From: Membranipora membranacea | Taxonomy: Eukaryota > Bryozoa > Gymnolaemata > Cheilostomatida > Membraniporidae | Direction of reading: 5' to 3' | Assembly (NCBI GenBank): GCA_914767715.1 | Contig: OU612069.1 | Coordinates: 2,294,001 to 2,358,000 of the forward strand | Length of the DNA: 64,000 nt | Part shown: piece after piece, positions 35,964-62,022 of the stretch | Layout of the letters: each line of letters opens with the position of its first letter | Numbering within the stretch: the stretch's first letter is position 1 | The notes under the pieces: model-generated | What the model was told of the DNA's origin: nothing | The model's database searches: none | Seen by the model: only the letters and a program-made list of their open reading frames with translations | Made by a program: the position numbers and the translations under genes

Positions 35964-36595
35964 CTATCTGACTTGGCAAAGTTTGCATGTGGAGCAGACG
36001 TCGGGGTCGCATATAACACATTTTTTAGAGAGTACATCGTACATTTGATTACACATACAGTTAGATGGCACACCTTTTGAGTTATTAGAACACCATATAT
36101 ACAGTGTACAGTCATTAGGATCAGCTACCAACTCATCGTCCTTATCAACACATACATCAGGCGGTAACTCTGCAGCTTCTGTTGTTGTAGGAGTGGTCTC
36201 TGTTGTTATGGGCGTAGTTTGAGCTGTTTTGGGCGTGGTCATTGTTGTTCTGGGTGTGGTTTGAGTTGTCATGGGTGTGGTTTGAATTGTTCTGGGTGAG
36301 GTTTGAGTTGTTCTGGGTGTGCTGGTTGTTGTTGTTGTTGTTGTTGTGGACATAGGTTCTGTAGCAATATGTGCTGTTGATCCAGAGGATGGTGTAGCGT
36401 TCACAGTGGTGGGAGTGTTTAAGTGGGAAGTAGGTGAAGTCGATTGTGATGAGGTGGTGGAAATCTGAGCAGTTTTTGACACGTCTAACACTGTATGAGG
36501 GGTAGATGTATTGTTTCCAGCCACCGTCCCACTGCTCGTAGTTGCATAAAGCCTATCAGTGATCGATGTAGAGGGTGTGGTAACTTTCTCCAAAG
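35964..36595 (-). CDS. mucin gene: isoform-3 last exon, Thr stalk and second chitin-binding type 2-like module
   Basis: 632 nt, phase 1 start, 209 full residues then TAG. Imperfect TTPRTTQ/TTPMTTQ-type repeats lead to PPDVCVDKDDELVADPNDC, LYIWCSNNSKGV, CMCNQMYD and KKCVICDPDVCSTCKLC. The six-cysteine pattern with D.C..Y..C is a good fit to CBM14 domains. The CICDPDVC..C tail repeats the motif of the mini-exon. Confidence 0.78.
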
Positions 36596-39500
36596 CTGTT
36601 TTAAATAAACCAAACAATGTACTGTTATTTTGTAGTATTGAAATAAAACACCCGATCTAAGATTATTTGTATACCTTCTAGAATGACAAAAACAAAGCAT
36701 AATCCATATACCTATATGATCTGATAAACTATTACCATCATAGGTATTGGACTACATGGATCGTTAGGTTGTCTTCTTGTTTTCTAGGAGTTGACAACTC
36801 CAAGATATTTCAGAAATCTCATGGTTACAACTAACTATATTCTATGCGTTTGAAACTGGTTTACACGCGTATCACATGATATACTATTGCATGTGTATCT
36901 CTGATCGATGGAGAGTGAATTAATTCACTTAGTATGAGTACCATCACAAGGAATTCGGTGTGACGACCGTGTTTAATTTTATTAATTACTGCTGGGTACA
37001 AATTAGGTACCGCTACTAAATTGACCCTAACGATCAGAGATCCACATTTTGATGGTGTAATCTCGATGTTAGTGTGATGGTTAATCTGAAAAATGTCTCT
37101 CACTTGAAACAAGACCATCTAGAGTTATTATTATTGGTATTCACTCACTGGATAAACTTGATAGAGTTTGGAAGATTGTGGTGTCTTGTCCTTTGTCACC
37201 ATTCGGTAGAGAAGTACCCACACTAGCTATTCTTTCTGTCACAGCTGTCACTGATTGGGTTACTGCAGTGCTACTAGGCGACTCACTGCTAGTCGCACCG
37301 ATAGTAGTCGATGAGTGGGGGTTAGGAGTGGGCCCACTGGGTGAGGACGCAGATATGGCGCTGTCCTTTTTGGTCGGGATCGCAGTGTTTGGGTTAGGAG
37401 TAGTTGTGGGGTAATTGGAGGCAGTTGTGGTAGTTATGGCAGCAGGATTAATCTGTCTCTCTGTTATTTGATTCGTAGTTCCCTCTGGAGGATAAGTAAA
37501 AAATGGCGTCTCTTCCATAAGCATAGTAGTAGTAAGCATACCCTCTGCACCCTGCAATGGAGAAATAGACAATGTGTCATTCATGAGTGCAGGAATCATA
37601 AGTTCTCAACCAACTAAAGTAAGACCGACAGACATCAAGCGGGGAAAGATGAAACAAAGGTACAAGAATTATTTATACTGTGTTTCATTTATCTTCGTAA
37701 GACCAACCACTTTATACGATATCTACAGGCCAATGATGATGACTTGTCACAGGGGCGTGTATATGGCGTTTTTGGGGGACAAATTGGCATCTAACAAGCC
37801 AGACTCCTGTCGCTAAGCAAATGACAAGCTAAGAAGGAAACAGGAGAGTGTCATCCACAGCAGAAATCAAGCAGCCAGATATCAATCTGCAGGAAATAGC
37901 CAATCGAAGCAGCGCAACCCCAGAATACACAAGTTTTGACAAAATTTACTCTTCGTTGATTTTTTAGAAAGCGTGGATATTTTTGCAATGAAACCCGAGC
38001 TATGAGCAAGTTTGAAAAGAAGCTACCAGCCAATATTTAAAAAAAAAAGATGGCCGACTGAAAGTGGTCTATTCAAAATTCTTAACTCATGTAGACCATA
38101 GACAGCTGGCAAAGCTTTTTTTGAAAAAAATCTTGCTGACATATTGCTACCAACACAAAATGAGGTTAGAAAAGTGAAAGGTGTGTGCGCTAAAACTAAA
38201 ACGTGACAGGATTAATCCAACCGTCATATGGAATAACAGCCTCAAACCTCATGCTCGTGAAAGTAGACATTGTTGTAGAGTTTGTATAGAACTACAGAAT
38301 TATCGCCATAAACCATGAATCAATAAGCTTAGGATTGGGCCTGAGATCACACACCGCAGGTAATGTGCTGTTCCGATTTTTTGTTATTGTCAATCATGTT
38401 GTGAATTATTAGTTTGGAATCGTTATTGAAAAGAGCCCAATGAAGAAACAAAGTGATCGGTTAGAAAAGAAAGTCACATATAGATTGAGAACAAAACGGG
38501 GACTCGGTGCTTTACCTTTAGTGGTGATGATAGTCATTATAGTTCTGGAGATATGGAATCAAAACAAGGTCAAATCAAGATCAAGGTCAAATCAAATAGA
38601 CATGGTGTCATATAAGATATTAAAATTGACATTTTTAAGATGTATTTGAGCCTGTGGCGCAATTTCCTACATCTTATATTTGACATACGACAAAACCTGT
38701 TCTTACAGCTGTGAACAAATTCGGCAGCTGTGGTCTGAGGTGGCTGTGTTTTGACTACTTTATTTACAAGCACATTATTGACATACAAGTTCTTATTTAC
38801 ATACAAGCATATATTCACAGGTTCATACTTATTGGCATACACTATTCGCACATCTGCAGACTGCAATTAGGTCAACTCAATTGCTTAGCTGCTCGATTTT
38901 TACTGTGTGATAAAAATGTCTGGTTTTGACTTGTAATGTGTAATGGTAACCTAAGTGCTGTATCGACAATTCCAATATAGGGTGGGGACAACACAGAGTA
39001 AGGAAATATCCCTACTCTGTGAGGATAAGCTTTAGGATCCACATGCACAACTTAGATTAGAGCTTTAACAATTCTTCTGTGTAGTCGGACCTTTGGCTTT
39101 CCAGCAATAAGAGTTGACAAAGAGGAAAACAACAGTCGCTGTGAGAATGCCACATACACACACACATTGAGAGTCAAAACCACATCTAAACAATACATAC
39201 AATAATCCGATCATGTAAATGACATACACAAGTTTTTGTGTCAGCTCAAAAGTTTTATAATTATTTTACGGGGCCTACATATTCTAATTCCTTAGAGTAT
39301 CATGTAAATCTAAATTTTCGAGGTTACGCATAAAATTAAGGTACTGGATAATTCCTCAAAGTCATATCAATTTGAATTTAGCTGGGTTTGTAATTTGGAA
39401 CTCTTTGCAAAGAAAATAGCTGACACAAAACCCTGTTGGTTGAGTTAAACAGTGATATAGCATTGATAGAAAAAACGATGACGAACACACAGTGAGAAAA

Positions 39501-42500
39501 AGTGGAATCGTTGAATAAAATCTTACCGTCAATGGGGTGGTTACTGAAATCATTTACCAGATCATTGCAAAAACAAAAGAATTATTTGCACTGAGCACTT
39601 GCATATATTCAAATAGATTTTCAGACTTGATTTGATAAATTTTTAAGTGTTTAGAAAAGCAAAAAACAACCAATGTTCATATCAAAGCATACTCATAGCA
39701 ATAAACAGAAAACTTAAATTTACTCGCATAAGGACATTATTTAGTGATAAAACTGATTTCAAAGTGCGAAAACCCACGGTCTAGAAGGGTCTAGAGCATG
39801 TTATCCCCCCCCCCCCTGTTACAGACTAAAACTAAAGTGATGATACACTAACAGTATAACAGTAAGCCTAGCCCTGGTTTGCATCGGACAGTTACCAGGC
39901 TGCCATACTTACACCAGTAATGATCACACTCGGTATTAGTCAAAGGTTACCTAGGCAAAGATAATCTGTAACAGGGGAGATAACAGACTCTAGACCTGGA
40001 GTTTTGGCAGTTTGAAATCGATTATATCATTCAATAATGTCTTTGTGCAAGTAAATTTAATTTTTTTGTCCATTGCTATGAGAAAACTGTGATATGTAAT
40101 GGATATATGACTGAGGAGGTGCAACTGTAAAACAGCATATGGCATAATATCTAAACAACATAAATGGAATGGCTATATCTACTCACATCGTCATCAAAAT
40201 CATCATGTTCCTCTCTGCATTGAGTACACACATCATTATCACACCTGGAAGGTAAAAAAACAGTTCACCGTATAATGTGTAATCGTACCCCAATTGACTG
40301 CATTCAATAGTTTTGGAATTCATCAATTTTAGGAAAATGGAAGACCAAATATTGTGCTAAGGGTGGTTGTCACAAAAATTCAAATATAAAAAAGATATTT
40401 AAATTTCTAAATTTTTTTGTCTCTTCAGAAGTTCCCATGCACGGATCATGTTGATATTCTATTGAATTTGTATATCTGATCAATAAATCAATGATTGGTA
40501 TGTGTATCTTCAGTTTCTTCATAAGAAATGTGTTGTGGCGACGTTTCTAAAAATATTGGGGTCAAAGACACATAATGCTAAAAGTGTAATAAAGTGCATG
40601 TTCAAGTACAAGTGCAAGTACAAGTACAAGTACAATAGTGCATACACAAGTGCAAGTACACAAGTGAAAGTACACAAGTACATACACATATGCAAGTACA
40701 AGTAGTGACTAGTGAGTACTCACGGGACACATTTGCCATCATGCTCCTCAGTCTGTTTCCACATCGAGTTATTTGCAGCCCTACAAGGGGCAGTGATGTC
40801 CTCCGCCTTATCATCATCACACACCACAAATAGACTACAGTTATCACTGTGCGCGTATTTCCCACCATGTTCTCGTCCGTACCTGGCACAACCTGTAAAT
40901 GTCATACAAAATTACGTCGATAATCAAATAGGTCACAATTGGTATTGTTAGGCTCTGTTAAGATGAGGTGCTTTTCCTGCACAAGTTCTTTTTTACAAAG
41001 ATGATGGTTGTTTCCAAGATCTGTGAGACTTATCTGTAACAAACACATACAAGAAAGCTAAAAAAAAGTAATTTTGCCACATCAGAAGAAAAAGCACCCA
41101 TGGAATACAGGCAAAATAGAAAGAAACATGAGCCAATGTCAGGTTGAGTGATCAAGCGGGTTTGAAGCGGTGATAGAATAAAACTTTGTGTTGAGCAGCC
41201 AATTGCAATATATGCAGGTACGATATGAACACTCCTCGATCACTACTCGTGTAAAACCTGAGATCTCAACGTGGTATATAAGGAATGAATAAATCTCTGA
41301 CAATTAGTAATGTTTATATGGTGTCCGTATGTGATTGTTCCTGTTTGGCAGCAATTGATTCTAGACTACAGGTTCGCATATAATACCCTGCCGCTATGGG
41401 CACCTTATAATGTAGCTTTTGTGGGCTGAGGCTGAATATGGGGAGTAACCAGTATATCAGGTCTGAAGTCGTGCGTTCATACCATACAAGAGGACAACTC
41501 CCAATATACACTCATTATTCGGTTTCCTATTTGACATGATAACTTTTTGTTCGATAGTGAGCCTTGCATGTAGGTCAAAAATGAATTAATGAACTTGTTC
41601 AATAGCTTAATTTCCCATCTCATGCTCCATTTACAAACATTAATTTTCGGCCCAAAGGTGACCATCTTATGGCTAATCCTATTGACATAGTTCGCCCTTG
41701 GCATACAGTTACATTGTGTAAAAGCTTTTTTAATATAAAGTCGATTGGAATATAGTATAAACAAGCAGAGTCTAAACTAAAAAGATGCAATCACCGCCAC
41801 CGATAGAAAGGAGAGTGTGAGATTTAGTAGAACACGGGGTAGCCATATCCTGACCTGTCGGAGGTAAAGTTGTTGTGGTTGTTGTTGTGGTTGTTGTTGT
41901 GGTTGTTGTTGTTGTGGTTGGTGTTGTTGTGGTTGGTGTTGTTGTGGTTGGTGTTGTTGTTGGAGTTGTTGTTGTAGTAGTGGTAGTAGGTGTGGGTGTG
42001 CTTATTTGAGTGGTAGTAGGCCTATTACTAGTAGTCGGCCTAGTAGTCACACTCACGCTACTACTAGTACTACTGACATTATCATACTGTACAGTGGTCA
42101 CTGTGCGAGAAATAATTGCAATGTCTGTTATAATCAGTCAGACACGATGAGGCTAAGATTGTCTTGAAACCGATTTGGCAACCAACAGAAATTTCACATC
42201 AGAACTCCTCAATCAAAAATACTAGGATTTTAAGCCCTGCAAATGTCTTCATAAGAAATATTACAGGATTTGAATCCCCAACTTCCTATGGTTATGAGCA
42301 GTAAAACTGTATAAGAATGAATCAGCAGAGGTCTTTCAAATGAAATCTGTTATGATTGTTCTCTGGCCATTCTTCACGGAGTTTAATGGTTTCTGTTAGA
42401 GATTTGGTACCACGATCGACCAATGCTTATTGATCTATCTATGTTAAGAGTGACCAATTTGGATGAAAACTTGTCCAATATTGAAAATCTGAACAAAGTG

Positions 42501-45500
42501 ATTTTGCCCAAATACCTCCCAATTTAAAGACCATCCAGTATATCGTTTTTTTCAGTATAAATTTAGCAGTCAAGCTTATGAAGAAAGCAGAAATAGGTTA
42601 GATGTAATTAAAATAAAGTAGTTCTAAGTGCATCCTATATATAAAGATCTTCTCTTTCCCTGACATTTTCAATTTAACACTTCAACAAGATTATTTTCTA
42701 TTTTATGAAAGGTTGAATATCAATGGCAGTTTGATAAAAATCTTCTTCGTGCGATGATATATTACCTGTGAGTGGTGGTGTAGTCGTAGTGGTACTTATG
42801 GCAGGCGCTGCTGTTGTCGGTGTGTTGGTACTGGGGGTATGAGCGGTGTGTGAATTACTGTCTTTTTCCTTTTCAATTTTAGTGCTATTGCGATCTACTT
42901 TCATATCCGAGTGATCGCCTGCCAATAAATCATGAATACAATTGTTTTTGATATACTAACCATAATAACGAACACATAAACTTGCTGAAGAAATTTAAAA
43001 AATGGAAGAGATTTCTTTATTCCATTAAGTGCCAGACATGACCATGTTGATAACGGGCTTGATGATATTGAAAGCTTTATTACACTATTAAACAGCACAA
43101 AACATTTGCCAGGTAGACATCGTTTTAACGACCGACTGCAGAAACTTTTTCTCTTCACCCCTAAACATGCTGGGCTCAGCAGTAATTACAATTCGCACAA
43201 TGCTCACATATACATGGGGTTGAGTGCGGTACCTAGACAAAAGCAAGCAGTATGCCTATCTGAATAGTGTAATGTGTGCAAATGAAATATGGTTATTTTG
43301 ATTACTTACCGAATCTGGAGAGAAATGATACCATCATGCTGAGAGAAGGACGAGGACGGGAAGGTCTGTCTGGATTTCCTTCAGTACCATCATCACAATT
43401 AGCCATACAATCTTTATACATAAACCGTACCTCAAAACCTATCACAACACTTCCATTACTAGAAAACAGAAATCAAAACATATTGTCAGCGATAATTTTA
43501 GAGCAAATTTAGAGAGAAGTTGTCTCAAAGCTGCCTAACCTGCTAACTTTTACTACTATTAAACTTTTTTTAATTATTTATAAAAGCTCATTAATAAGAT
43601 TTTATCAATTTTTCAATGAGCACATGCGAATGGGAGAAAACTGGCTAGAATGGCGGTCCCATTAGGATTAAATCAATTAAGCCATTTTTTCTCAATTGCT
43701 TGTGGTTATTGAAAAATAACCATTATAATTCAATCAGTAGGTATCCATATTCCTGACCTTTTGATCTCAACAAAATCTCATATTGAGTACTGTATGTTAT
43801 TGAAGGTGGTATCGTTGTGAGATAATATGGGGAAGACGGACAGAGGCTTAGGTTTTATCAAAATATAAAATGGAATGTTTCTGTATCAATAAATATCATC
43901 CAATCTGCAAGTATGTCACATAACAGGTGTTTAACGGAGAATAAATGATAAACAAGTTTAAATTGATTGGAAGTATTTTCTCAGACTAACCAACATCTTT
44001 AAGAATTTGGTAATAAAAATAATGAACATTTTGATGAGACTTCTGCTACAATCATGGCTGCAAGAGTGAGTATTCTTCTCATTAAACGCCCCACTCCCTC
44101 CCTCAATATAGGGGTCTTTGGTTCAGATATCATCATATGTAAGGATGATGTAAAGACTTATAAGATAACATCATTTACAGCTGCTTACAACATACGGAAA
44201 GCCCAACAACTACAATTAATTCATCGAGCGCCTAGTTGAAGTGACCGCGTAATAAATCTGGCTTTGGATTCAGATGATGGACTGCGGAACTGTTGCCTCG
44301 CTTATCCTCGTTTAAAGCTTTCCATAACCTTGTCATTATTAATTTATCCGTCTGCTGAGTCAGTGAACTTCCCAACCTCTTTTGTGAGAAAAAAACTCAA
44401 CTAATAAGAAAAGGGGGGGGGGGGGGTGGCAGTATCTAAATACCCATTTGGAGAAGGTATGATTGTAATACTATATTTGATACACAGCATGGCAAGAATA
44501 AAAAAGAATTTAATTCCCATACAGGAAAAGTTAAAAAAACATCTTAATTTTGAAGTTGGTATTATAGGTTGTTTGCTACTATATGTGTAGTCTAATACTG
44601 ATCAAGAGGGATAACAAAAGTGTGAGGCGCATAAAAAATATTGAGTAAAGAAGTCTTCTACTTAATATCTAAATAGGTAATAATATTGCAGAACAAATAC
44701 AAAAATAACAGTAGATACAACTGCACACTTTACATGCTGCAGCAGTGCTGGTGAAGATGATGACCAAATTTCATGAATCATAATGATGTAATATAATAAT
44801 AGATATTATATAATAAATGAGTATATACACAAACATCTAACCTCTAGAGCACTATTGAGGAGAGACAACACAACCAATCCGTTGAATCCAAACCCGTATG
44901 TGTACAGTCACATAGTGGGGAGCACTATGTGTAATCTGAATATAGTAATAAATAAATGACTGCCTATTCATCAAAGTCTGAGTTTCTGGATTTAAAAAAA
45001 AAACCCGGATATAACAAGCTGCTAATTAATTGACAGTTAACAATTTATTTTCAAGTGCAGCTTAATCCACAGAGTCACTCATTACAAAGGAACTTTAATG
45101 CCTAGGGTGAATTATCATCACTTTTTACAGCTCATGATGTCTTCTGAAAATAGCGGCTTCTGAAAATGTGAATAACTAGGAAGCAGACTTTAAATTTCAG
45201 TCAAATGAACTATGGCTTATGCATCTTCATCGGAATCACAGTCAGATTCACACGATTTACATTCTCCAGCATCACTATCATAGAATTCGTCGATGTCGCA
45301 ACAACCATTTGTATACTTATTTTTCAAAAAAAAACTAGTTATGGTGCTTGCATCATGACAGGTATATAATTGAAAGCGCCTCTTGCTTGGTTTACAATCT
45401 GGATAATCTTCATCTTCTGGGAATGGAATTGTTCGATTCATCGTACAAAGGGCAGTGGTATCAAATTGAGTTAGATCGGTATTACCACTGAAAGCTGTAT

Positions 45501-48500
45501 TGTCTGGACAACCTACAAAAGTTTGTTGTGGGCAGTCTTCACCAATGAGTGATAATTTTGTGCAGTTTTGCAGTACAGATTGTATAGAACAGTCAATAGT
45601 TGATTTCGTGGTTATTTCTTCTGAACCACTTGTTGTTGTCAACGGGCTTGTCTCCAGCACTGCTGTGGTTGGAACTGCTGTTGTTGGTACTGCTGAGGTG
45701 GATATTGGTTTTGTGGTTGTTGGTGTTGGAGTTGGTGCTGTTGTTGTTGGTGCAGCAGTTGAAGTTGGTGCAGCAGTTGAAGTTGGTGCTGTTGTTGTTG
45801 ATGGTGCAGCAGTTGTAGTTGGTGCTGTCGTTGTAGTTGGTGCTAGTGTTGATGGCGTTGTTGGTTGTTTCGTTGGTATTGGCGTCGTTGTTGGAATAAT
45901 AGCTGCTGGTGCTGTGGTGGTCAATTGTATGCTTGTAGTTGGCTGTACAATCGCTGTCGTTAGTGTGGTTGCTGGCGTTGTTGTTGATGTAGTGGTAGTT
46001 ATCAACTTTGTGGTTGAAGGCAAAGATGTTGTGGTCTGTGTGGTTGTCAGTGGTTTAGAAGTTGTAGTGGTGGACATCTCCTCACTGGAACTTTTGTTCA
46101 AATTATTGTCATGTCCTTCTAGCCGAAGATCAAGAGTGATATTGAGGTCAATCTTCCATCCTTCGTCCCCGATTGTAGCGTTTTTAGTTACCTCCGTAGT
46201 GAGTCGGTGTTTGATGAGCTGCGCCTTCTCCCCCTGGTCCTTTTTGTCTACCTTATGTTTTGGTTCGGTTGCATTAGTTGGTACTTCAACAACTTTGATC
46301 TCCACTTTGAATGAAAGGTTGAACTCAACAACAATACTTCCGTTTCTGCAAAAAGAGAACAGAAAATGCTAAAATGAAAGCAATTTACTGCAGTGATTAA
46401 AATTTAGCACCTTGGATATCAGGAATTAACCCAAGCGTTTCATATCTGGTTTAAAAGGAAAGACCATTGCCACTACCATACCTTTGAGCAATATACCCGG
46501 TTAGAATTACCCACATTAAGCAGTAACATTGACCACAAATATTTATATTATTGGTATGAATAAGCAGAGCTGTAATACAGAAAAAGCCAATGAGCAACCA
46601 TTTACCAATTCATTACACAAGGTTAGTCAATGGGACGTGTTATAAGGTTCCATTGCAAACCCTGGTTTATCTTAGTATGCTGCTGTCGCTCACCTGTGTA
46701 GCAGGAATAATAATTACTGCAGCGTTCGCCCATCCTTGCAGTGCTCTGGAGATCAGCTAGTGGATATTTGGATAGAGCACATACCGTTATCCCTCTAAAA
46801 TAAAGCTCTACACCATTTTGAAGCCCTGGGTGTAGATTGTTTGTGAGGAAGCTTGCACCGTAACCGGTGATGGTTATGGGAAATACTTATAGCTGACCCT
46901 CAATAACTGCACCCACCACAACGATATGCACATTCAGGGTATGACATCAAGCAGACATCAATTGTCAAAGCGGCGATGTTCACCACAATACAAATGTGCA
47001 GAACAATTATTAGCGAAAGGTATCACACATGTTTCGATTTTATTGTAACTTTAACTAAGCACACAACAACAAGGATATAATTGAAATAATATAGGCTTAA
47101 TGCACAACACTATATATGATGAGATGATGATAGTAATAATATTAATCATGATAAAATAATAATAATTATAATAGTCATGTAAGGACTGGATACACAGCCA
47201 GGACAAAAAACATCAGCAGATGTTTCTTGAGCCCGATATAAGAGAATCAACTGTTTGGGTACACAAGTAACGCAATCAAAACTAAATATGAAAGGATGTT
47301 TAAAAGACTTGTTATAAAATATTATTTTATTTTATAATGGTAAAAACATAAGTTTCACACTCAAGTAATTTTGAAGGCCCATAATGAAATAGGAAGTACA
47401 GGCTTATACCCCAAATACTCAAAATGATTTTCATTGACACCGATCGATCTTGAACATGAGTAGTAGTCAGTACAATAAGTAGAACCAAGTTTTGGCAGTA
47501 GCTACTCTGTAGGCCTAAGTCATGTTCTCAATATTGAAAAAAAAACATATTGTGGCATGCATGATGAATCGAGCTCAGAGGAATTGATTGTTTTTCAGTT
47601 GATTTAGCGCCCTCTGCCTTTCCCTTTCCCTTCTTTACTTTTTTTTTTCCCGCTATGTTTCTCAGAGCTGTTTGATGAGTTACACTTATTCTTACTTTTA
47701 TCACATTCCACCACATTTTTCTTTGTAGGCTTTACAGACTTAAAAATTGACTTAACATTTTGTTTCTGCTTTGATGGAATGGCACTTGATGCGTCCAGAG
47801 TTGCGTCTGGGGAGAAGGTGCCAATTGGCCAGTGAAAGGCTTTGGAGGTGCTAGTAGTACTGAGTAGCTTTCGTCCATTTCCTGCTGTTGCAGGCGGGAC
47901 AACATCACTTTTGGAGGTCTTGGTGTTCTGGATCACAGATTTAGTAGTTGGAGAACTTGTAGTGGTAACTGTTGTCAAGGAGGGTTGTGTCGTGTTGATG
48001 ATGTCGCAAGTAGTTGGGGCCTTTGTTTCAGGGTCCTTTGTTTCAGGGTCCTTTGTTTCAGGGTCCTTTGTTGTTGGCTTTGTTTCAGAGTTGGTTGATT
48101 TTCCAGAGGTTGGTTCCTGTTTGGTTTGTGTTGGAGATGTTGCTGGGATTGGGCTCGTGACTGTACTTTCTGTATCCTCATCAGGGGTGTCTGTAGTTAC
48201 GGAAGAACTGATAGAGCTCACAGTTCCACAAGTTGCGTTTGTTGCACTTGTATTAGACTTCTCACTTGTGGTATTTGGGGACATAGTTGTTGTCAAGTTG
48301 GGTGTGATTGTTGTATTACTATGGGTGGAATTGTCTGACAAAGTCAGGTTGAGATAATTGTAGTCAAAGGTACAGTTCAAGTTCAAACTCTCGTTACAGT
48401 AGGCAGACGAATTGGAGATCTGTGACTTAATGATATCAGGGTGTGGTTGGGTCTCTGTTTCATTGGAGAGGACGAGAAGTTTCAGTGTGAAGTCTATGAT

Positions 48501-51500
48501 AATACTTCCGTTCCTAAATGAAAAAGGAAATTATGTAATGTAAAGTTGCTTACACATGAGCGGGGGGGGGGGGGGCAATTTCTAACACTATAGCACTCTG
48601 TAACAATATTGCATAACTACTGCAGAACTAGCTGCCTGACTGCATTGGTCTTTCAAAAGTCTTTATGAAATGCCCTTCAGTTAAGTGCTACAAATATCAA
48701 ATACCATGAGAGAAGTTGTTAAAAAAACGGAACTCTGAGCAAATTCAAATGTTGCTCAAGGGAAACAGATAATCGATTAAGCACAGAACAGGCTGCATAG
48801 ACAAAATTATCGCAAACTTACCGGTTTTCAAGGGAGACAATTTCTGCAGCGGAAGAGAATTATTGCTTAAATCACTGCATGCCAATTGCGATATCAGTCA
48901 CTCAGCAGATAGCAGAGTATTGCAGGAATTTGTGTGCATAAGTGGAAGAGAACTTTTATAAAATGTGACACTCTTTCGGCTAGTCTTGCTTTGTTTTGTG
49001 ATGGTTTAGCGTGAGCTTTTTGCCCTACACCAAAAAAGTGAACCAGCAGCACCCACATTAAGGCATCTTGAACCATTAAGTTCAAAGCTGCGCAGCCCCG
49101 TAACATAATGCAGAGGTTCTTGGGCAGGGTTCCTTGGGCTGTCTTCGGCCACATAGTTCTTGGTCATACAGTTAATCGGGCGGTCGCCATTCTAGTCTTT
49201 GACTACCTGATCGCTCCGCTGTCATCATTTTTTTTTAGAAGAACCTTTTATTACAAATAAACACAAACAGAAACCGGAAAAAAAAAAAGAAAAAAAAATC
49301 CATAGCACCCCGAGTCCAAAGGCTACCAGCAATCCCAAGAACCATCCTCAGACTGAGTGTATACAGCTTGTTTGTTAGGGGGACTGGGGAGATAATAATA
49401 GGGGGAACATAAATCATTATGAGCTGACACACATAAGCAGCTTAGCGAATCAGAATTGCTGACCTAAACAAAGTTACATATCAATTGTGAGAAAAACTAA
49501 ACCTGTGCTTTACTCTGTCCGACTTTATTTGTTTGGGTTGGTGATCTACACTCCCAATCAGAACAAAGTCGTGAGAGTAGAGCCTGGCAATGTTGTCTAG
49601 TTCAAGATTTATATGGAAACAGACAGGGCATGCGAAAAATTTCTTTACTTGAACGAGTAAACATAAATTCAAAGAGATGGCAAGTCTTGAATCACTTTGC
49701 TTATATCAAATTTGGACATTGATGGTGATTATGTGTTAAGTTTGGCATGCCCTGTCTTATCTAAAGTTAAATTAAATTTTGAAACATTAAGTTAAATGCG
49801 GACTTACGAAAAACCAGTGACATTACATCCTTGATAATCCCCATCGTACTCTGCCGTCGAGTTTGTGTTTGTAAAAAGAGTGTCCATCTAAAACATAAAA
49901 AAAAAGAGGCATGTTTATGATACAGCTTGTGAAAAGTTACATAAGTTGTTGCCAAATACGCATGGATTGATATTACTCGGCGGTTATATTTTATTGTGTT
50001 CAACTCAATCCAGCTCAATTGTTAGGCTAGATAAAAAGATAGATTAGATAATAATTTGAAGTTGCCATCCCCTTGACATTGATGGCATAACTCCAAATAA
50101 ATGGTACCTTCGAACATCATTTATGATTGCAGCAGGGCGTTTGGGATAAAACCCAAACTCCCTGATTGCAGCAAGTAGTTTTGGACAACTTCCCTGATAA
50201 AAATATGAAAAGTCAGTATCAAGATTTATTTGAAGTGAAATAGAATCAATCAGGAAATCATATTTTCTGATTATCTTCTTCGTCATCTCGATTGAAAGTT
50301 TTTGGTTTTTTTTTCCTTTTTTTTGTTTTCTTGGAAGGCTGATTTTGTAAAACATTCTCATCGAATGAAAATTATTCCAATAAAGTTAAAAAATTAAATA
50401 AAAATATCACAGAAACAGGAATGACATCGTTACCAAATGTTTGACACCTTGGCATTATGATGCAAGTGTCAATGAAATACAAGAGGGTTTTTCAATGAAG
50501 CTAACTCATGACCAAATCTGTTTGATTATGAAGTGAGCAACTTTTGATCAGGGCTGACAGGACTGGCTCACACAGCAAGGAGTGATTATGCAATGAAGGA
50601 TGCAGTTTATATTTGAAATACCCCCCCCCCCCCCGGCCTATATCTTTATATTCCTCGACGACGGCAATGAGGGAAAATTTGCACTAAATTCAATACTAAA
50701 TCATATTCTTGGGGATGGGGGAGGGAAAGTGCTATGAGACTATTCAACGCAGAGAAAAATCATTGATGTTAGAAGGATGAGTATGTGCCATCAGTATAGC
50801 TGGCAGTGTTGATGTGATTCTGGAAGTTGTCCGAGTTTGAGGTGTGAATGTTTTGTGAAAGTTGTAAGTTGATATTGATCTGATTGTTGTGGAGTGTGGG
50901 TAGGGAGAAGCCATGGTGAGTCCCTCAAGACGAGAGCAGGAATCAGACTTGGGATGCTAGATAGCTATGGGTGTTAGAATTTGCGCTGTCTAAGCTCCAC
51001 ATACAATTTTACAGATTTATATATTATAAAATTAAAATTAATAAATATATGTATAAAACTTACAGAGCCACAGAATCGTCTACTCAGATTCTGAGATTTA
51101 GGTGTCTGCAGGTCATCAAGATCGTCCTCATATATCTCACTAGTAATTCTCATCGCTCCGTCAAAAGTCAGCGCTGTCAAGGGGGTAAACAGAAGAATAA
51201 AATTAAATAATAAATGCATTATTATATGATAAAAATAATAAAATAACATTCATTACCATATAAAGCGAAATAATGTATCATATAGGATTATATTTTAATT
51301 TGAAAGGAATTTCTGTGTTTCACAGATGCCTGACAGTTAATTAATGATAATATTCATATTCTAGGTATAAAAGTGTTAGCAGGATTCAGCAGAGTCAACA
51401 AGGTAGAGCATATGATTCTATAATTTTATTTACAATAATAATGAGTGATAACTAAATAATTAAATAAATGTTAACATATAATTGATAAGACAGAATTTAA

Positions 51501-54500: not shown

Positions 54501-57500
54501 AGAAATAGTGCTGGTCCAAAGAAGAATTCACAGAAACTGACAGCCACCAGATTTATATAGAAACACCATTGTCACCTCTGAACAGTCACCAAACTCAATT
54601 ACCATATTAGTCGTCCATATGACACTGCAAACCTCACAGTGCATCACATTAGCATTAATATAGCGATCCCACCCATTGTGTCACACAGCTGAAATACTGT
54701 AATATGTGGATATTCCGGTTTTACTACCATGCGTGCACGCTCAGTTTTGTTTATATTTTGATTTCACTCTCTGTTGAGCTGAGTTTTCCGAATGATGAGA
54801 AGAAAGTAAAGGGTACGGTGGTCAAATTTTGAATCTTGCATGGAAACGTCTCTGTATATTCACATTGTAGGTGTAAGGTTAAAGCATTAAATTCCAATAT
54901 TTAATTTAATCTTTGAAAGTCTTGAATTATTCTACCCTACAGAATTGGGCTCCGGGTTGACAAAAGAAACACCCAAACAAGTGGATTTCATTCAGCTGCA
55001 GGTTGGTTGAGAGTAAAAAAACGCTTAGAATTTTTTGTATATTTTGACATTTAACCGACATTTTTATATACTATTATGCAGGGATAAAATAAGTAATCCA
55101 CAACGGATATTGGATTCACCTTAACTAAATTCAATTAACGTAATCCTTTAATACTTTAATCACAGACTCTAACATGTCAAATATACCTCTGTAATAAATC
55201 TCAAGATTCTCACAAAACTCAAATTGTATGGCCTGTTAACTTGAATCAAATTATTAAATTTTGTTTCTCTGTTTTAAAGCTCCAATACAGAGGGAAAGAG
55301 GAAGTTTGTTACTGAACAAGCATTTCTCTTTTAGTATTTTACGAGTGGCAAAATTAGGGGTGATTCGGCGGGATGTTGACTCACATTAGTTGTCAAAGAG
55401 TGATAAAGGCCAAAAACTTCCAAATAAACTCATTCCTGATGTAATTTTAAAAAAAAGATCATAATTGCACAAGTTCACGACTACTGTTGTAATCTAACCA
55501 AAATATTCATGTATTTAGCCATAATTATTGATCAAAACATAACTTCACTTACCTATAGTCGGAGTAGGAGTAGGAGTCGGAGTCGGAGTCGAAGTTGTTA
55601 CTTTATCCCCTAGAAACAACACGCCCAATGCGGTACCACCTCCAATCAGCACTACCGTCACAAATATAGACACGATTATACAGATCTTTTTGCGACGGTT
55701 CTGACGCTGTCGTCTTAGCTCCGCCTTGACCCAAGGCGGATCCTCGACTTCTAGCTGTTCGAGAGGTTGTCCATCGGCTGTCACTCGACCTTCACCTTCA
55801 ACATATATAACACAACATATAGAATATCCATAAAATTCTAAACTTCCCAAAGCCCAATACATGTTATAGTCAGGCAATTACTTATGATAAAGTTTTGTCA
55901 GATTTTCACGGTAAAAAAATTCAACTCTACTCTCTTTAAGCTCTACTTGGCATGAATTATTGATTGTGGAAAAAGTGCCTCCCATAATGGAAAGTAACAT
56001 TGGCACAATGTCTTAGGGTAGCTTTTAAGAAAATAGTTGAGCTGTCCGTCTGGTCTGCAATGAAAACAGTTGACTATGTGAAGAGAACCTCTAGTTTAAA
56101 TGTGATGACTATGATTGCCCATTTTATTTGTGACTTTAGGTAGTGTTATGTTATGAACATAAAATTCTGCGAAGTATTGCGTTAACTTATTAGCAGAGGT
56201 CAATGCGACCTTGCAATACTTTACGATGTTATGTTTGCAGTTGAAAAATGTTGCTCTATCAATCTAGTCAGAGGTGGGAGGAGTGAACCTGAACTTTACT
56301 TCCAAACAAATAATATAATGAATATATAATAAGTATATAATATCTGTCTATGAAGGTAGCTAAATAATAGCACAAGTAGTAGATTTGTAGACATGACATA
56401 GACATGTACACTAGTAGAACAATGAATAGTTACCGGGAGGTAAGTTTCTATGTCTGTGAGAATCTGTAGAGATCACTGGGCTAGCGTGAGTTATTATATC
56501 AAAATCTGAAAGACATCAATATATATGGATATAAATTGAACGAATCAACAGGAATTTTCATTGGAATAATATGTGCATTTTCTACAGGTAAAGTATGGAT
56601 GAACTTCTCTTCGATTGACCAATACCTAGACAAACTTTTAAATTATTACATGGCCTTAGATAGTTTGTTTTGAGCACTTTTTCTGGTCACCTAAATGGCC
56701 AATACAATTAGACAGTGCAGGGAACAGGTTGACTGATTTGATACCAAAGATGGGATTAACGGATGAGCCGATAATTGCAATATTTTTAAAGTTATCTCCC
56801 CTGTCAATTTCTTTACAGCACACGGATACCGAAAGCAGACAACAACCTAAATAAATAAATAAATTAATTAAATTTTAAATCCCTAGAAGCCTGTGATGTT
56901 CCTCTGGTGGCAGGTTGGGATAAGGCTGACAAATTACCTGCGGATTAGGGCGTATCAGAAAGAGGATAATCCCTTCTCAGCCTTATTCTATCCATGCTCA
57001 ATCGCTTTGTTTGGGGCGTAAGAGTGTTATGGAATTTTACAACCGAGTTAAAATAAGTGGAATCAGTCATGAAACTTGTGATATGTTTCGGCCTTGCCGG
57101 GTTGGGTGTGTCCCCATCCAGTGCCAGTGTTCACACGCCGCACCCAGATGCTATTCCATATGAATTATTAGCAATAAAATAAAAAACAACCCCAACCTCA
57201 GGCGCGTTGACAGGTTACATCTCACTGTCATAAAAATCTCAAGTTGAATTAAATTAATTCTGGGAAAACAAAGATAACACCTGTCTATATGACCACCTCA
57301 TCCTCTTAATTTTTACTCCGAGCAATCCATGATCTGTGTTAAGGTTATGACACCAACATTCACTGAAATTGACATTTATATATTGTTGGAAGGCTTATCG
57401 AATTCTGATTCTGGAAATATAGGCTTCAGCACAATGCCATGACATGACATCATGCTAAAACCAATTTTCAGACTCAGAGTTCAGTTAGCTTTTCAACAAT

Positions 57501-60500
57501 ATATAAAATGTCCAATTCAGTCAAAGTTTGTATAATAACATAAGCGAAGCCTGTGAGCAAAAATCATGGGAGTAGCAGCAATAAGTACAACCTCAGGACG
57601 TAATACATACCATCAAAGGCGGTATCCTCGACTCGACTGTTTCTCCTTGAGACCGTTGGACTGTAGCCCCGTGACGACCGCCTCTTCTTAGGCAGGTATC
57701 TGTTGTGACTAATAATAGGGCTATGACTACCCTCCCTACTACCGTCTCTGTTATGTTTGTTATGGCGGTTGGACCCTGAGTTTGTGGTAGCTGGGTACTG
57801 AGTCCGAGGCAGCTTGCCCAGTGTGGATGAGTCTCGACCGCTCGAGCCCGACGGGCCAGCGGGTTCGAGTCTATGAATGAGTGAGTTATTATCTCTGTGT
57901 AAGTTAGAGTCACCGGCTATCGTATGCACCGAGCCTCGATGTCTGTTTGTCTCACAGACTTCTTTGTGATGGCGCTCTGAGGTTCGGTGTACATTATTAC
58001 GTGGATAGTCTCTGTTGAACATAGGTTTGAAGAATCCTCCGAGCGTCGAGCGACTGCCCGCCTGGTGGTCGTCTATGTCAAGTAATTGTGGTAAGGGGTG
58101 CAGGTGGAAGTCCTCTTCAGCTGTTTGACAAATTTAAAACAATAGGGGTGAATCACATCAATGGGTGAACACTATTGAAATTTTTAAAACCTCAATAACA
58201 CAGGTAAATGGTCATTCTTATTAATCATTCAGTTTTTGACCAACTCCTTAAACCAGATTTTGATGGTGCGTTATCTTGACCAGTCTACTGGGTGATAATG
58301 GTTGCCTTATAGTAGGGAGTAAACTAACAACCATTGTCACAAAGTAAATTAATCACTCCACACACCTAATGCGCCGACAGACAACCCCGAAAAATTAATG
58401 ACTATAAGAAACATTCATACTGTAAAGCCTCTCCTATCAGGGCATCTGTTTATATCTAGGCCAAAAATGTTTCATTATGAAAATTGAAACTAGTGTATGA
58501 CCAAAATGAAGATACAAGCGCTGTGTGCCTATAAGAAGTAGGTTTTTACTATCTCCAAAAACAAGAGTAACTTACTGTTGTTGTCGTCAGCACCTTCACT
58601 GGTAGATTTAAATAACTCATCAGATATTGTACTACTAGCATCATCAATATAAGCACCATTATAAACTCCCGTCCCACTTCTGACACCATTGGTATGAATA
58701 CCATGAGGTCCCTCAGATTCAGACTCACTACTACTGTCTACAAAGTAGTCGTTACTCCTACTGTTCTGACTAGCGCCTGTTGAAATAGAAAATTGTTGCT
58801 CTCGTCAAACAAGTTAATCACAAAAATATTATGAACAACCACATGTAATAAGATGGCAACGATCATTATGACAAAAGCCATAGCATTGAAGCTTACATTT
58901 CTACATAAATCACAGGCATATATTTATCATTAACATGTACAATGTTTTCAATGTAAATTCTAACAAATGTAAGAGGCCTTTTAATGGAGCTTGGCGATAT
59001 AATGGTGGCCCTGTGTAGTTATACGATTGTCGATACAACTCACCAATATGGACATAGTTGTCCCCACCTATGACAGCGGCTGTAGGGCCGTTCCTGTATT
59101 TGTGTTTCTGCTGACGAGGAAGACTAGAAGTGATAAAGCTTGGGTTCCTAATAATACCATTCTCTTCATCTGAAATTCAGCATAATAATATTATATTCTT
59201 AGCAAAATATTGCACTACCATCGAGTAAAATTACGAAAAAAAGGGAAAGACGAAAATTTCTACAACTCTCAGGTAGCTTTCAGCTACTTAGCTACCAACA
59301 TAATTATGCTTGTTTGTAATAATGATGGTTTCCCTCTTGAGTTGGAGACATTATTAAACAATGAAAAGGTTCACTAATCTAAAATCTAATTTCCAATAAA
59401 TAGTGCTGTGGTTGATACATAGAGAACTTTAATGTTTATGAATAGGACAAATGCCAAATTTGCATGAACTTGAAAATGAAGGTCAATTTTTCGCAGTTTT
59501 GTAACTTATTTTTTAGCAGTTTTGAAAACAAACATTGACACCTCTTAAACGCATTGCTCTGTGAATTATCAGATAAGGTGAGATTAGCCTACTATAGACA
59601 GTTTTCTGAGCTATGATTTAGGCCTCAATTCGGAGTTGTCCTCTCTCCAGTTTGGTACTTTTAACCCACGCCGCATAGGAAAAACGTGCTGAAAAGAGGG
59701 TTATCTTGATAACCGCTTATAATAGGATAAAAATTATTTTTGATTCAGAATCTGCAGCATTGAAAACTCATATGGACATAGTTTGGGAAATAATTTTAGT
59801 ACTTGGATAGTCAATTATAGCATTTTCTGCCAGTTTTGCGGACAATTTGGCAGAATTTTTCATGAGTTCCGTCACTAAAATTAAGATTTATCAACATTCG
59901 AAGCCTCCAATGATTTGGGCACTCTGTCTCACAGGGTTTTCAATGGTGCAGACTCTGAATCACAAACTCATTTTTATCCTAACATAACCGGTTTCAAGAT
60001 AACCCTCTTTTAGCAGGTTTTTCCTATGCGGCGTGGGCTAAAAGTACCAAACTGGCGAGAGGACAACTCCGAATTGAGGCATAAATAAGAGCTCAGAAAA
60101 CTGTCTATTGACAGCAAGCTGTAGGGATGGATTGGTACTAAGTACACAATGAGTAGGCCTAAATTACGTTTTGGAGGAGAGACAACTTTATTAATTACCT
60201 GGAGACTGAATGGCCACGTCTCCCCGTAGAATGGCCTTCTCAAATACATCCCTGAGACTCTTACTGTGTGCACCTTTGTGATAGGACGGCTCAGAGAGCT
60301 GCTCTGAATGTGGCCTCACAAATCTACAAACAGACGAGCATTCTATAGGCTATATTACCCGCTCTTACCTCAAGGTTCCTGTAACTGCAGAAATGCACCC
60401 TGCAGAGGCTTTATGACCATCTATTAATTTGTTGGCTACAAAGTTACGCACATTATAATATTTTCTATTGTGTCAGTAAAATCAAAACTTCATTTTAGGT

Positions 60501-62022
60501 GCTAAATAGGCCTATTACAAAAATGCCCTAACAATCTTTTACAATCTATCTGATAAGGCCATATTTGTAATGTTTTGCTCCTAAAAAGTAACAAAGTTTG
60601 ACCAATTGGAAATAACTTTGATGTTGTGGTTTCATGTATGTGTTTTGAGCTTGATTTTCTCACTGAGTAGGCCTATTTAAAAGCAATTACAATTGGCAAA
60701 TTGTTAAACTTTTCCAAAGAATTCCTTAGTCAGGTAAAACAATACATGCTATTGTAACTTCCTCCTCGGCCAATTAACTTCACAACATTGACTGCATATT
60801 TATATCAACGAGTGCTTTGGTTGGCATGCACTAATACACAATAGTTTGGGGCGTAATAGGCAATCCCCATAAACATTCAAGGTTCAACAAGCAAATACAA
60901 AAAAAATCTAAGGCGTTCCACTAAATAGCAGCAATAATTCCCCAAAGGCGAGAAAGCATGTTACGCCCAGAGAAATTATATAAAATTTTTGTACGCCCAC
61001 CATTCAATAACTTGCGTCATGAAAGTCTAGTCTACAAGACGCGCATCAGGGATGTGACATAGTTCTCAAAAAATACACAGAGAAATAAGAAGTTGTCTCG
61101 CCATCATCCCAAATGACAAAAGGGAGCAATTTACATTTGGATGAAGATGGGAAAATTAAACAGCCTGAGGAACAATCCACATTTCACAAGTATGAGCTTG
61201 TCAACAGTATAGAAAATTTAAATTTGTCGTTTCCTGAATTGAATGTTTATTTTTTAAATGTCATGTGAGTTTTTTGAAGATCGTAATTTTTGCTTGCAAT
61301 TAATTGGCTTACAATATCATCACTTAACATGTATCCCAATTTTTCCTCCTAAATTCCGATAAATCATAGCCCAAGATTTAACAAGATATGTAATCTGAGA
61401 TTAAATTTTGTTGTTAGTCTAACAAATAAAATGACCACCTTGGGAATAAGGAAAACACAAAGTAATCACTGCTCACTGGAAGGTGATATATGCTGATAAT
61501 CCACTAACATTCTAAGTTATTACTGATATATCCAAGCGTCAGCAAAGGAGGGCAATCTAAGGTTGATTTGACATCCTATGGATAGTATACTTTATAATAT
61601 ATCACACCGACATATTGAAAGACAATTAGGCTTTTTCTGCGCGCTGTCATTCGTCAAAAACATTTATATTTTGTATGCATACATTTATAGCTAGTGGATT
61701 ATCCAGGAAACTCACTTTCCTCCGCGACAACCTATGAATTTGATAAGTCAAAGTTAACAAAAACTAGCACCAACAGATACAATCGATCGATTCAAGACAA
61801 TTAAATACGATCAAATGTATACAATAATTTAACTTATAATATCAGATTATAGACCTACCGTGAGTGAGATAGATCGACACTATAAGCGGAGGGTTTGCCT
61901 CCTCCGTGATTCTCATACACTCCACCACCACCTCCGTGGTGATACCCATCGGAGTATAAGTGTGGATGTGACGATGTATCTATCACTAGGGGGCGCTTTA
62001 CATAAAACTCAACGTGTTGTGC
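35964..62022 (-). CDS. type II membrane mucin with SEA domain and three alternative C-terminal ectodomains (5' end not found)
   Basis: Shared exons in transcript order are 62022-61859, 60323-60199, 59169-59044, 58776-58576, 58120-57611, 56505-56434, 55795-55553, 54097-54032, 51173-51064 and 49887-49808 (1697 nt, last phase 2). They feed three phase-matched continuations: 48513-47604; 46345-45217; or 43458-43310, 42918-42766, 42100-41855, 40892-40724, 40244-40187, 37551-37149 and 36595-35964. Visible products are about 868, 941 and 1168 residues. Order of parts: a Ser/His/Arg-rich cytoplasmic tail, a basic RRQRQNRRKK flank, one hydrophobic segment, a short TPTPTP stalk, a SEA domain, and a Thr-rich mucin region with or without Cys modules. 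The basic flank before the only membrane segment puts the N terminus inside. SEA domains in mucins cut themselves at a Gly-Ser bond; here that motif opens each alternative part. Tethering to a chitinous matrix is inferred. I do not recognise a named orthologue. Confidence 0.8.
36863..37076 (-). repeat. MITE family M1, copy 3 (mucin intron)
   Basis: In reverse complement it follows 3231-3422 closely (CATCGAGATTAC, AATTTAGTAGC, GGTCGTCACACC, GAATTAATTCACTCTCCAT, ATCAGAGAT). It lies in the last intron of mucin isoform 3. Confidence 0.7.
37149..37551 (-). CDS. mucin gene: isoform-3 exon, second Thr/Ser stalk
   Basis: 403 nt, phase 0 to phase 1, acceptor CATTGCAG, donor GTGAGT. It is rich in Thr, Ser and Pro (TTTTASNYPTTTPNPN) with no cysteine. 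Its phases match the mini-exon before and the last exon after, although other small exons in the 2.6-kb intron before it cannot be excluded. Confidence 0.7.
40187..40244 (-). CDS. mucin gene: isoform-3 mini-exon, CxxC tail of the first Cys module
   Basis: 58 nt, phase 2 to phase 0. It encodes CDNDVCTQCREEHDDFDDD. The CD.DVC..C motif recurs at the end of the last exon (CDPDVCSTC), and a related CESDC ends alternative last exon 2. Acceptor CTTCCAG, donor GTGAGT. An acidic run closes it. Confidence 0.72.
40605..40723 (+). repeat. TACAAG-type microsatellite against a splice donor
   Basis: Imperfect 6-bp units (CAAGTA, CAAGTG, with CATA variants) run from about 40612 to 40708. The array ends within about 15 bases of the donor of the 40892-40724 exon. 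Expansion or contraction could affect splicing of that exon; this is inference. Confidence 0.8.
40724..40892 (-). CDS. mucin gene: isoform-3 exon, first Cys module (chitin-binding type 2-like)
   Basis: 169 nt, phase 1 to phase 2, 55 full codons, donor GTGAGT. It encodes CARYGREHGGKYAHSDNC, then LFVVCDDDK, then PCRAANNSMW, then GKCVP. The spacing C-x16-C-x5-C-x11-C-x15-C is close to chitin-binding type 2 (CBM14) domains, which bind chitin in peritrophic and cuticular matrices. With the next exon it continues CVPCDNDVCTQC. The donor abuts a TACAAG-type microsatellite. Confidence 0.75.
41855..42100 (-). CDS. mucin gene: isoform-3 exon, poly-threonine mucin stalk
   Basis: 246 nt, phase 1 to phase 1, donor GTCAGG. 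It is almost pure Thr/Pro/Ser, with threonine runs coded by ACA/ACC/ACT triplets (GTT/GGT repeats on the plus strand). A dense array of this kind is a typical O-glycosylated stalk. The triplet repeat is probably length-variable. Confidence 0.72.
42766..42918 (-). CDS. mucin gene: isoform-3 exon, end of SEA region and first Thr/Pro stalk
   Basis: Phase 1 to phase 1, 153 nt. It starts DHSDMKVDRNSTKIEKEK and runs into a Thr/Pro/Ala stretch (STNTPTTAAPAISTTTTTPP). AG/GT borders (acceptor TTGGCAG, donor GTAATA) agree with both neighbours. Confidence 0.72.
43310..43458 (-). CDS. mucin gene: alternative SEA second-half exon 3 (internal)
   Basis: Acceptor TTCTAG, then phase 2; 49 full codons; donor GTAAGT after phase 1. 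It encodes NGSVVIGFEVRFMYKDCMAN and on to PSLSMMVSFLSRFG. It has the same start motif as the two alternative last exons but a real donor, leading into six further exons. It should be used only when both nearer last exons are skipped. Confidence 0.75.
45217..46345 (-). CDS. mucin gene: alternative last exon 2, SEA second half, long Thr stalk and Cys-rich module
   Basis: Acceptor TTTTTGCAG, then phase 2, 375 residues and TAA. It begins NGSIVVEFNLSFKVEIKVVE. A charged helix-like part (GEKAQLIKHRLTTEVTKN, then DLNITLDLRL) finishes the SEA domain. About 130 residues of Thr/Pro/Ala repeats follow (TTTAPTTTAAPSTT and the like). The end is Cys-rich with YPDC, FQLYTC, NGCC and FYDSDAGECKSC, in the spacing of a chitin-binding type 2 (peritrophin/CBM14) domain, and closes acidic. 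Plus-strand TTTATT at 45044-45049 gives an AATAAA 168 bases past the stop. Confidence 0.78.
47604..48513 (-). CDS. mucin gene: alternative last exon 1, SEA second half plus Thr/Ser mucin and basic tail
   Basis: Acceptor TTTAG, then phase 2, 302 residues and TAA. It begins NGSIIIDFTLKLLVLSNETE, completing the SEA domain with the cleavage motif GS[IV][IV]. A Ser/Thr-rich stretch with many N-glycosylation sequons follows, then five-residue repeats KDPET (15-nt repeat at about 48023-48075), ending in a lysine-rich tail (KKSKEGKGKGRGR). There is no chitin-binding-like module. AATAAA (plus-strand TTTATT at 47326-47331) lies about 270 bases past the stop, supporting a true 3' end. The long open frame on the other strand is a shadow. 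Confidence 0.75.
49808..51173 (-). CDS. mucin gene: two exons encoding the first half of the SEA domain
   Basis: Exon 51173-51064 encodes LTFDGAMRITSEIYEDDL and on to SRRFCGS, ending in phase 0. Exon 49887-49808 encodes MDTLFTN, then AEYDGDYQGCNVTGF, ending in phase 2 (TC). The layout (an F.G...IT..Y...L strand and helix, then a helix ending before a ..V..F.NGS motif) fits the SEA fold. The final strands are missing here and are supplied by whichever downstream exon is chosen, since TC plus A, G or T always gives Ser. A preceding exon (54097-54032) adds a short Thr-rich linker. Confidence 0.78.
51174..54031 (-). other. mucin gene intron of 2.9 kb, no exon seen
   Basis: Between the linker exon (54097-54032) and the first SEA exon. 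It is AT-rich with a poly(G) run at about 51967. The open frames at 52538 and 53071 on the plus strand resemble nothing known. Confidence 0.5.
55553..62022 (-). CDS. mucin gene: shared exons for the cytoplasmic tail and membrane segment
   Basis: Seven exons (61859-62022, 60199-60323, 59044-59169, 58576-58776, 57611-58120, 56434-56505, 55553-55795) read through without a stop, with phases 2, 1, 1, 1, 1, 1 and 1 at their ends. The first begins in phase 0 after acceptor TTTGACAG, so at least one exon lies upstream, perhaps beyond 64000. The tail of about 400 residues has Gly/His-rich, acidic (SSSESESEG) and Arg/Ser-rich (LPKKRRSSRGYSPT) patches and no catalytic motif. Such composition suggests a disordered, possibly phosphorylated region. 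The 55553-55795 exon carries PPWVKAELRRQRQNRRKK, then about 25 hydrophobic residues starting ICIIVSIFVTVVLIGGG, then TSTPTPTPTPTPTI. Confidence 0.8.
59597..60105. mobile_element. 509-bp MITE with about 170-bp terminal inverted repeats
   Basis: Ends GACAGTTTTCTGAGCT and its complement, with TA on both sides (a possible TA target duplication, though such a short match is weak). The outer 117-119 bp of each arm match closely, including AATTCGGAGTTGTCCTCTC and CCGCATAGGAAAAAC; weaker matching continues to about 59770 and from 59935. The centre has no open frame. It lies in the mucin intron between exons 60199-60323 and 59044-59169. Confidence 0.85.

Follow-up and report, generated by a model that had tools for sequence, protein, structure and literature searches.

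Gene layout at the locus

The DNA analysed here (hereafter the window) is a stretch of 64,000 nucleotides from the genome of the sea mat Membranipora membranacea, a cheilostome bryozoan (chr5:2,294,001-2,358,000), and all coordinates below are window positions. It contains a minus-strand gene whose exons, flanked by AG and GT, form one unbroken frame. The part of this gene upstream of the variable region consists of the following exons:

61859..62021, minus strand: furthest-upstream coding exon recognised, predicted cytoplasmic; AG/GT flanks and in-phase join to exon 60323-60199, start codon not located
57611..60323, minus strand: predicted cytoplasmic exons 60323-60199, 59169-59044, 58776-58576 and 58120-57611; continuous frame, AG/GT flanks
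56434..56505, minus strand: predicted cytoplasmic exon; continuous frame, AG/GT flanks
55553..55795, minus strand: transmembrane exon with the sole transmembrane helix found (hydropathy), RRQRQNRRKK before the helix
54032..54097, minus strand: PTS linker exon; continuous frame, AG/GT flanks
51064..51173, minus strand: SEA exon 1, first part of the SEA N-half, ending in phase 0; N-half profile 10.7 bits, E 0.049, second-best in the window
49808..49887, minus strand: SEA exon 2, second part of the N-half, ending GCNVTGF, phase 0 to 2, with the shared donor; N-half profile 11.5 bits, E 0.016, best in the window

Hydropathy gave one transmembrane window in each of the three predicted isoforms described below (products read from exon 60323 on, with exon 62021-61859 excluded). 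Because the charged stretch RRQRQNRRKK precedes the helix, the protein is probably type II, with its N-terminus inside and everything past the helix outside. The constant anchor and cytoplasmic part proposed in an earlier reading of this DNA (the initial annotation) were recovered, with one transmembrane segment, but on the charge pattern they would sit at the N-terminal end of a type II protein.

An 86-nt stretch between the two SEA exons (50193-50108, minus strand) has a good-looking acceptor and a GT donor; it was ruled out as a coding exon, as its inclusion shifts the frame, and might serve as a decoy or a poison exon. On the plus strand of the window we noted an ORF resembling a Kelch repeat by eye (1668-1925), a 384-aa open frame (21915-23069) and a minisatellite-like region with repeated ORFs (SVCQVVIEHLSLDMDP) in several frames (27302-28145). 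Elsewhere in the genome, a contig of 14,741 bases (G000:C18; L023, L024) is mitochondrial, with genes on both strands.

One SEA N-half and three possible C-halves

Past the shared donor, three exons on the same strand each offer the second half of a SEA domain:

47604..48513, minus strand: alternative exon A, SEA C-half NGSIII, Thr/Ser-rich region, basic tail, stop; Pfam SEA when spliced, 40.3 bits
45217..46345, minus strand: alternative exon B, SEA C-half NGSIVV, Thr-rich region, acidic Cys-rich tail, stop; Pfam SEA when spliced, 40.3 bits
43310..43458, minus strand: alternative exon C1, SEA C-half NGSVVI, phase 2 to 1; Pfam SEA when spliced, 36.8 bits

The initial annotation had exon 49887-49808 ending in phase 2 in the middle of a SEA domain, facing three phase-2 acceptors that all open with Ser-Asn-Gly-Ser-[Ile/Val], and our analysis agrees on both counts. 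The exon has AG/GT flanks and starts in phase 0 after exon 51173-51064; the shared N-half closes at donor 49808 with GCNVTGF and the first two bases of a Ser codon, and acceptors 48513 (A), 46345 (B) and 43458 (C1), all in phase 2, each add the one base that completes it. The split codon becomes TCG, TCA or TCT, each of which codes for Ser, and the frame continues as NGSIII in A, NGSIVV in B and NGSVVI in C1. Once spliced, all three domains lie above the Pfam SEA (PF01390) cut-off of 26.4 bits (A 40.3, B 40.3 and C 36.8 bits), with the alignment ending at profile position 88 (A), 76 (B) and 74 (C) of 106; unspliced, none of the three C-halves has a Pfam match. Over the spliced domain B shares 65% and C 63% identity with A, mostly from the shared half (the A, B and C rows of the alignment were used; its L001 row mixes halves of two different SEA domains).

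To locate SEA halves in the window we used two profiles, one of three other SEA N-halves of the genome (one partial), built without window sequences, and one of four other C-halves of the genome, both run on window six-frame ORFs of at least 15 aa. The N-half profile placed both N-half exons on top (11.5 and 10.7 bits; next in the window 6.4), and the C-half profile ranked C1 (7.3 bits), A (6.8) and B (5.8) as the top three (next in the window 4.9). The C-half profile is weak, because with the flanks included (20 kb upstream and 10 kb downstream) two chance matches at 7.6 bits outscore all three. A Pfam scan of three 8-kb frames with stops written as X returned zero matches and also missed the known N-half exons, so was uninformative, and a whole-genome Pfam scan for SEA found three places and missed this intron-split gene.

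Separate upstream SEA exons for each C-half, an arrangement the initial annotation had named as speaking against its own reading, did not appear: short-ORF profile scans found no second N-half in the window, nor in 20 kb upstream or 10 kb downstream. The same result weighs on a reading in which A, B and C each belong to a gene of their own, with its own promoter and 5′ exons, and are unconnected to the upstream SEA N-half. There is room for unrecognised short 5′ exons (1.3 kb before A, 1.3 kb between A and B, 1.8 kb between B and C1), but a SEA C-half should not fold without an N-half and these scans offer no other, which leaves separate genes very improbable.

SEA genes elsewhere in the genome

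As controls we took three further SEA gene regions from this genome. Counting pieces above 10 bits, their N:C numbers were 3:1, 3:2 and 2:1 (the two N pieces of the last region being exons of a single half), and C-halves outnumbered N-half pieces in none of the three. These counts are rough and lenient, because the control C-halves sit in their own profile and some control N-halves have no detected C partner: as profile members the control C-halves score 61-80 bits, against 5.8-7.3 for the window's three non-members, and the 10-bit line applied to the window would give no C-halves. The comparison of window and controls rests on the Pfam SEA scores of spliced A, B and C, and not on the C-half profile alone.

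A pattern-targeted search found a GS-hydrophobic start directly after AG at four other SEA C-halves (L001, L002, L003 and L009), so the position of the intron just before the GS site is ordinary. This bears on the origin of the triplet. The initial annotation had proposed a membrane mucin whose single shared SEA N-half can be completed in three ways, and an origin of these by exon duplication; the first part is supported, all three domains passing the Pfam cut-off, and the second is not. We found no DNA similarity beyond what SEA constraint would account for: A and B match over ~28 nt at the acceptors (79%, E 0.22), the best match of A and C is low-complexity (24 nt, E 0.007), and B and C share mucin repeats only, apart from the overlap of the segments compared. 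Duplication is not supported, because this similarity is small and because of the GS-hydrophobic starts at the four other C-halves.

Among the other SEA loci, the region at G000:C2:11840001-11860000 (L009/L019) has tandem SEA halves, with three N-half and two C-half matches in alternation. The region at G000:C2:10300001-10320000 (L005-L006) is type II-like and, by eye, corin-like, a SEA domain being followed by Cys-rich Frizzled-like and LDL-receptor-class-A-like exons. At about 680-995 of L001, beside a SEA/mucin gene, lies a tandem array with a 20-base unit (tgtcagtactcagcacatag; by eye).

Given tandem halves such as those in the L009 region, C-halves could outlast the loss of their N-halves, and A and B could be leftovers of a former tandem-SEA gene that are not or only rarely spliced, with a single expressed form, C being the likeliest. 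Against this, A and B are still open for 302 and 375 codons, have kept phase, motif and AG acceptors, and are accompanied by no trace of extra N-halves in the window, 20 kb upstream or 10 kb downstream; we regard leftover halves as improbable.

The three outer parts

Exon C1 is followed by six further exons that make up the rest of the C form:

41855..42918, minus strand: C2 (42918-42766) and C3 (42100-41855), mucin; frame
40187..40892, minus strand: C4 (40892-40724) and C5 (40244-40187), chitin-binding-like module; CBM_14 13.5-18.5 bits, under the 22.1 cut-off
37149..37551, minus strand: C6, mucin; frame
35964..36595, minus strand: C7, mucin and chitin-binding module, stop; CBM_14 above the cut-off

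The outer parts differ in length, charge and cysteine content. A runs 302 residues to its stop, with 41% S/T/P, 15 N-glycosylation sequons and a net charge of +13 over the last 70 residues, and B runs 375 residues, also with 41% S/T/P, with 12 Cys and a net charge of -11 over the last 70. Stop-free runs in 200 Markov-1 simulated strands of 64 kb reached at most 220 codons, against 302 for A and 375 for B. The C form passes, as originally described, from C1 through six phase-matched exons to a stop with no internal stop, giving 602 residues past the shared part, with 45% S/T/P and 20 Cys; the CBM_14 module in C7 scores 22.7 bits in the whole ORF and 30.3 bits as the module alone (cut-off 22.1). 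With PTS-rich outer parts and one transmembrane segment, the protein belongs with the transmembrane mucins.

Searches for relatives of these parts returned little. Exon A has no second genome match at E ≤ 1, and the SEA domain with the B C-half as query matches nothing else in the genome at better than E 7.45. The B tail has no Pfam match; an AlphaFold model of this Cys-rich tail alone (pLDDT 38) was not used, and neither the tail as a diverged CBM_14 nor ORF 46886-46623 as a chitin-binding remnant has Pfam support. No trypsin-like domain was matched by Pfam in the exons run, which were A, B, C4/C5 and C7. Against a protein set in which animals may be few, region 1-260 of isoform B has no homologue at E ≤ 1 (most of the 7996 candidates scored probably had low-complexity words in common), and regions 447-530 of isoform B and 340-412 of isoform C have none at E ≤ 10. 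A search of PDB sequences turned up nothing but glucokinase chains, the best at E 0.12, which we take as chance.

Splice sites and 3′ ends

Four features within and after A and B bear on how these exons are used:

48266, minus strand: candidate internal donor in A, phase 1, CAA/GTGAGAA; rank 68 of 3509 GT
46086, minus strand: candidate internal donor in B, phase 1, CCA/GTGAGGA; rank 29 of 3509 GT
47326..47331, minus strand: AATAAA after A, +272 nt from the stop (sequence)
45044..45049, minus strand: AATAAA after B, +167 nt from the stop (sequence)

We ranked splice sites with a matrix trained on this gene alone (16 donors and 16 acceptors, not counting those of A, B and C1). Among 3599 AG, the acceptor of B ranked 20, that of C1 58 and that of A, the weakest of the three, 317. 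These ranks are rough, because of the single-gene training and because the same matrix places some accepted exons poorly (N0 3228, N1 2563 and C3 1428 of 3599 AG). A junction from A into B through an internal donor, which the initial annotation had listed as evidence against three separate completions, would have to use a poor phase-2 candidate at 47740 (rank 253 of 3509 GT), the only one seen.

The phase-1 donors would fit a different arrangement, with A, B and C1 as internal exons, mutually exclusive or composite, that each complete the SEA domain and then splice to a common C2. The swap would then be limited to the SEA half and a short stretch after it, and the longer A and B ORFs would be intronic-polyadenylation forms or extra. 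Donors 48266 and 46086 both lie past the SEA half and open in frame into C2-C7, C1 too ends in phase 1, and A has a weaker third phase-1 donor at 47696. Two such donors are unremarkable, however: in the 2.04 kb of A and B about 0.7 phase-1 donors at least as good as the weaker of 48266 and 46086 are expected by chance. The ORFs past the donors also stay mucin-like, in B with the Cys-rich tail, and are longer than chance. Although there are two of these in-frame donors against ~0.7 expected, we think composite exons unlikely.

As the initial annotation had it, A and B run to their own stops, each with an AATAAA within 300 bases. The signals after A and B are weak evidence for 3′ ends, because that strand of the window has 41 AATAAA (one per 1.6 kb). 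After the C stop no AATAAA occurs in 1.46 kb, the only related signal there being an ATTAAA at +473.

Predicted self-cleavage and a model for the gene

All three C-halves carry a predicted self-cleavage site close to the splice junction:

48504..48509, minus strand: predicted Gly-Ser self-cleavage site in A (GGA/AGT); Ile at the last place of GSxxV (sequence)
46336..46341, minus strand: predicted Gly-Ser self-cleavage site in B; fits GSxxV
43449..43454, minus strand: predicted Gly-Ser self-cleavage site in C1; Ile at the last place of GSxxV

In SEA domains that cleave themselves the motif is GSxxV, where x is V or I (PMC9478142). GSIVV of B fits this motif exactly, and GSIII of A and GSVVI of C1 end in Ile, a conservative change for Val. 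As the splice junction lies two codons ahead of the predicted Gly-Ser bond, the shared exons plus Asn-Gly would form the membrane chain, and the rest the outer chain. A precedent is matriptase, a type II protein whose SEA domain is cleaved at Gly149-Ser150 and whose outer chain is held non-covalently by the SEA halves (PMC5567652).

We favour neither separate genes, nor leftover halves, nor composite exons, and consider it likely, from the reading frames and domain scores, that the locus holds one type II membrane mucin gene in which donor 49808 is joined to one of three SEA-completing acceptors. In this gene the shared exons would supply everything from the cytoplasmic domain through the membrane helix and a short PTS stalk to the SEA N-half, and each acceptor would bring in its own SEA C-half and its own outer region. 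In A this region is a short mucin that ends in a basic tail, in B a mucin whose tail is acidic and Cys-rich, and in C a long mucin with two chitin-binding modules, one confident and the other sub-threshold. A and B would each serve as an alternative last exon that carries its own stop and 3′ end, and C would be the read-through form. Folding and self-cleavage would leave a constant membrane chain non-covalently holding one of three interchangeable outer chains, which could be pulled off or shed. The frames, the phases, the SEA scores and the single N-half facing three C-halves are what the sequence shows; from there we infer the use of all three junctions, the cleavage, the orientation and the release.

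More tentatively, and with slightly less than even confidence, we suggest that a self-cleaving SEA domain may act here as a universal socket, where splicing beside the scissile bond selects a detachable outer subunit for a constant signalling anchor. A bryozoan epithelium could in this way switch its glycocalyx between basic, acidic Cys-rich and chitin-gripping forms, leaving the membrane receptor part unchanged. The body wall of this animal is chitinous, and such a gene, if real, would suggest how a single locus could tie the epithelium to the cuticle at some sites but not at others. It would also join isoform choice at the RNA level with self-cleavage at the protein level, two processes usually treated apart, and its one SEA N-half would have to pair with three diverged C-halves in folding, which would naturally probe which features the second half of the domain cannot lose.

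Comparison with known systems

In the IIIb and IIIc forms of FGFR, Ig domain III is split in halves. The shared exon 7 (IIIa) encodes part of the domain, which is completed by exon 8 or exon 9 (PMC3825415, Fig. 2 legend). The bryozoan gene would resemble FGFR in that a shared exon and alternative exons complete one extracellular domain, but in FGFR the choice lies between internal exons and leaves the rest of the receptor the same, whereas in the bryozoan gene two of the three completions would run to the end of the protein. The domain also differs, being SEA, with the junction at a predicted self-cleavage site.

Matriptase has one fixed outer part that ends in a protease. The bryozoan protein shares with matriptase and other type II SEA proteins its predicted type II topology, a SEA domain outside of the helix, and a predicted Gly-Ser cleavage into a membrane chain and a non-covalently held outer chain (compare PMC5567652). 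It differs in having three outer parts, and no protease domain was found by Pfam in A, B, C4/C5 or C7.

Classical transmembrane SEA mucins such as MUC1 are type I, in the order mucin, SEA, transmembrane segment and tail. The SEA domain, the PTS-rich region and the GSxxV-type site (motif as given in PMC9478142) are common to this class and the bryozoan gene. In the latter, however, the order is reversed to tail, transmembrane segment, SEA and mucin, and the outer chain is, in our proposal, chosen by splicing.

Variable 3′ ends and half-domain swapping each have further parallels. The genes lola and mod(mdg4) join a shared N-terminus to many alternative 3′ exon sets, like the constant N-terminal part and variable 3′ exons described here, but encode nuclear BTB factors; Dscam1 swaps half-Ig exons, and thus half-domains as proposed here, but from internal arrays. 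Among the titles and abstract openings of the literature matches listed, none described a case of this kind, whether a SEA domain whose last or terminal exons are alternative, one with mutually exclusive exons, or a mucin that is type II or binds chitin. Splicing that exchanges half-domains is already known; doing so at a domain that cleaves itself, by way of alternative last exons, looks like a new form of it.
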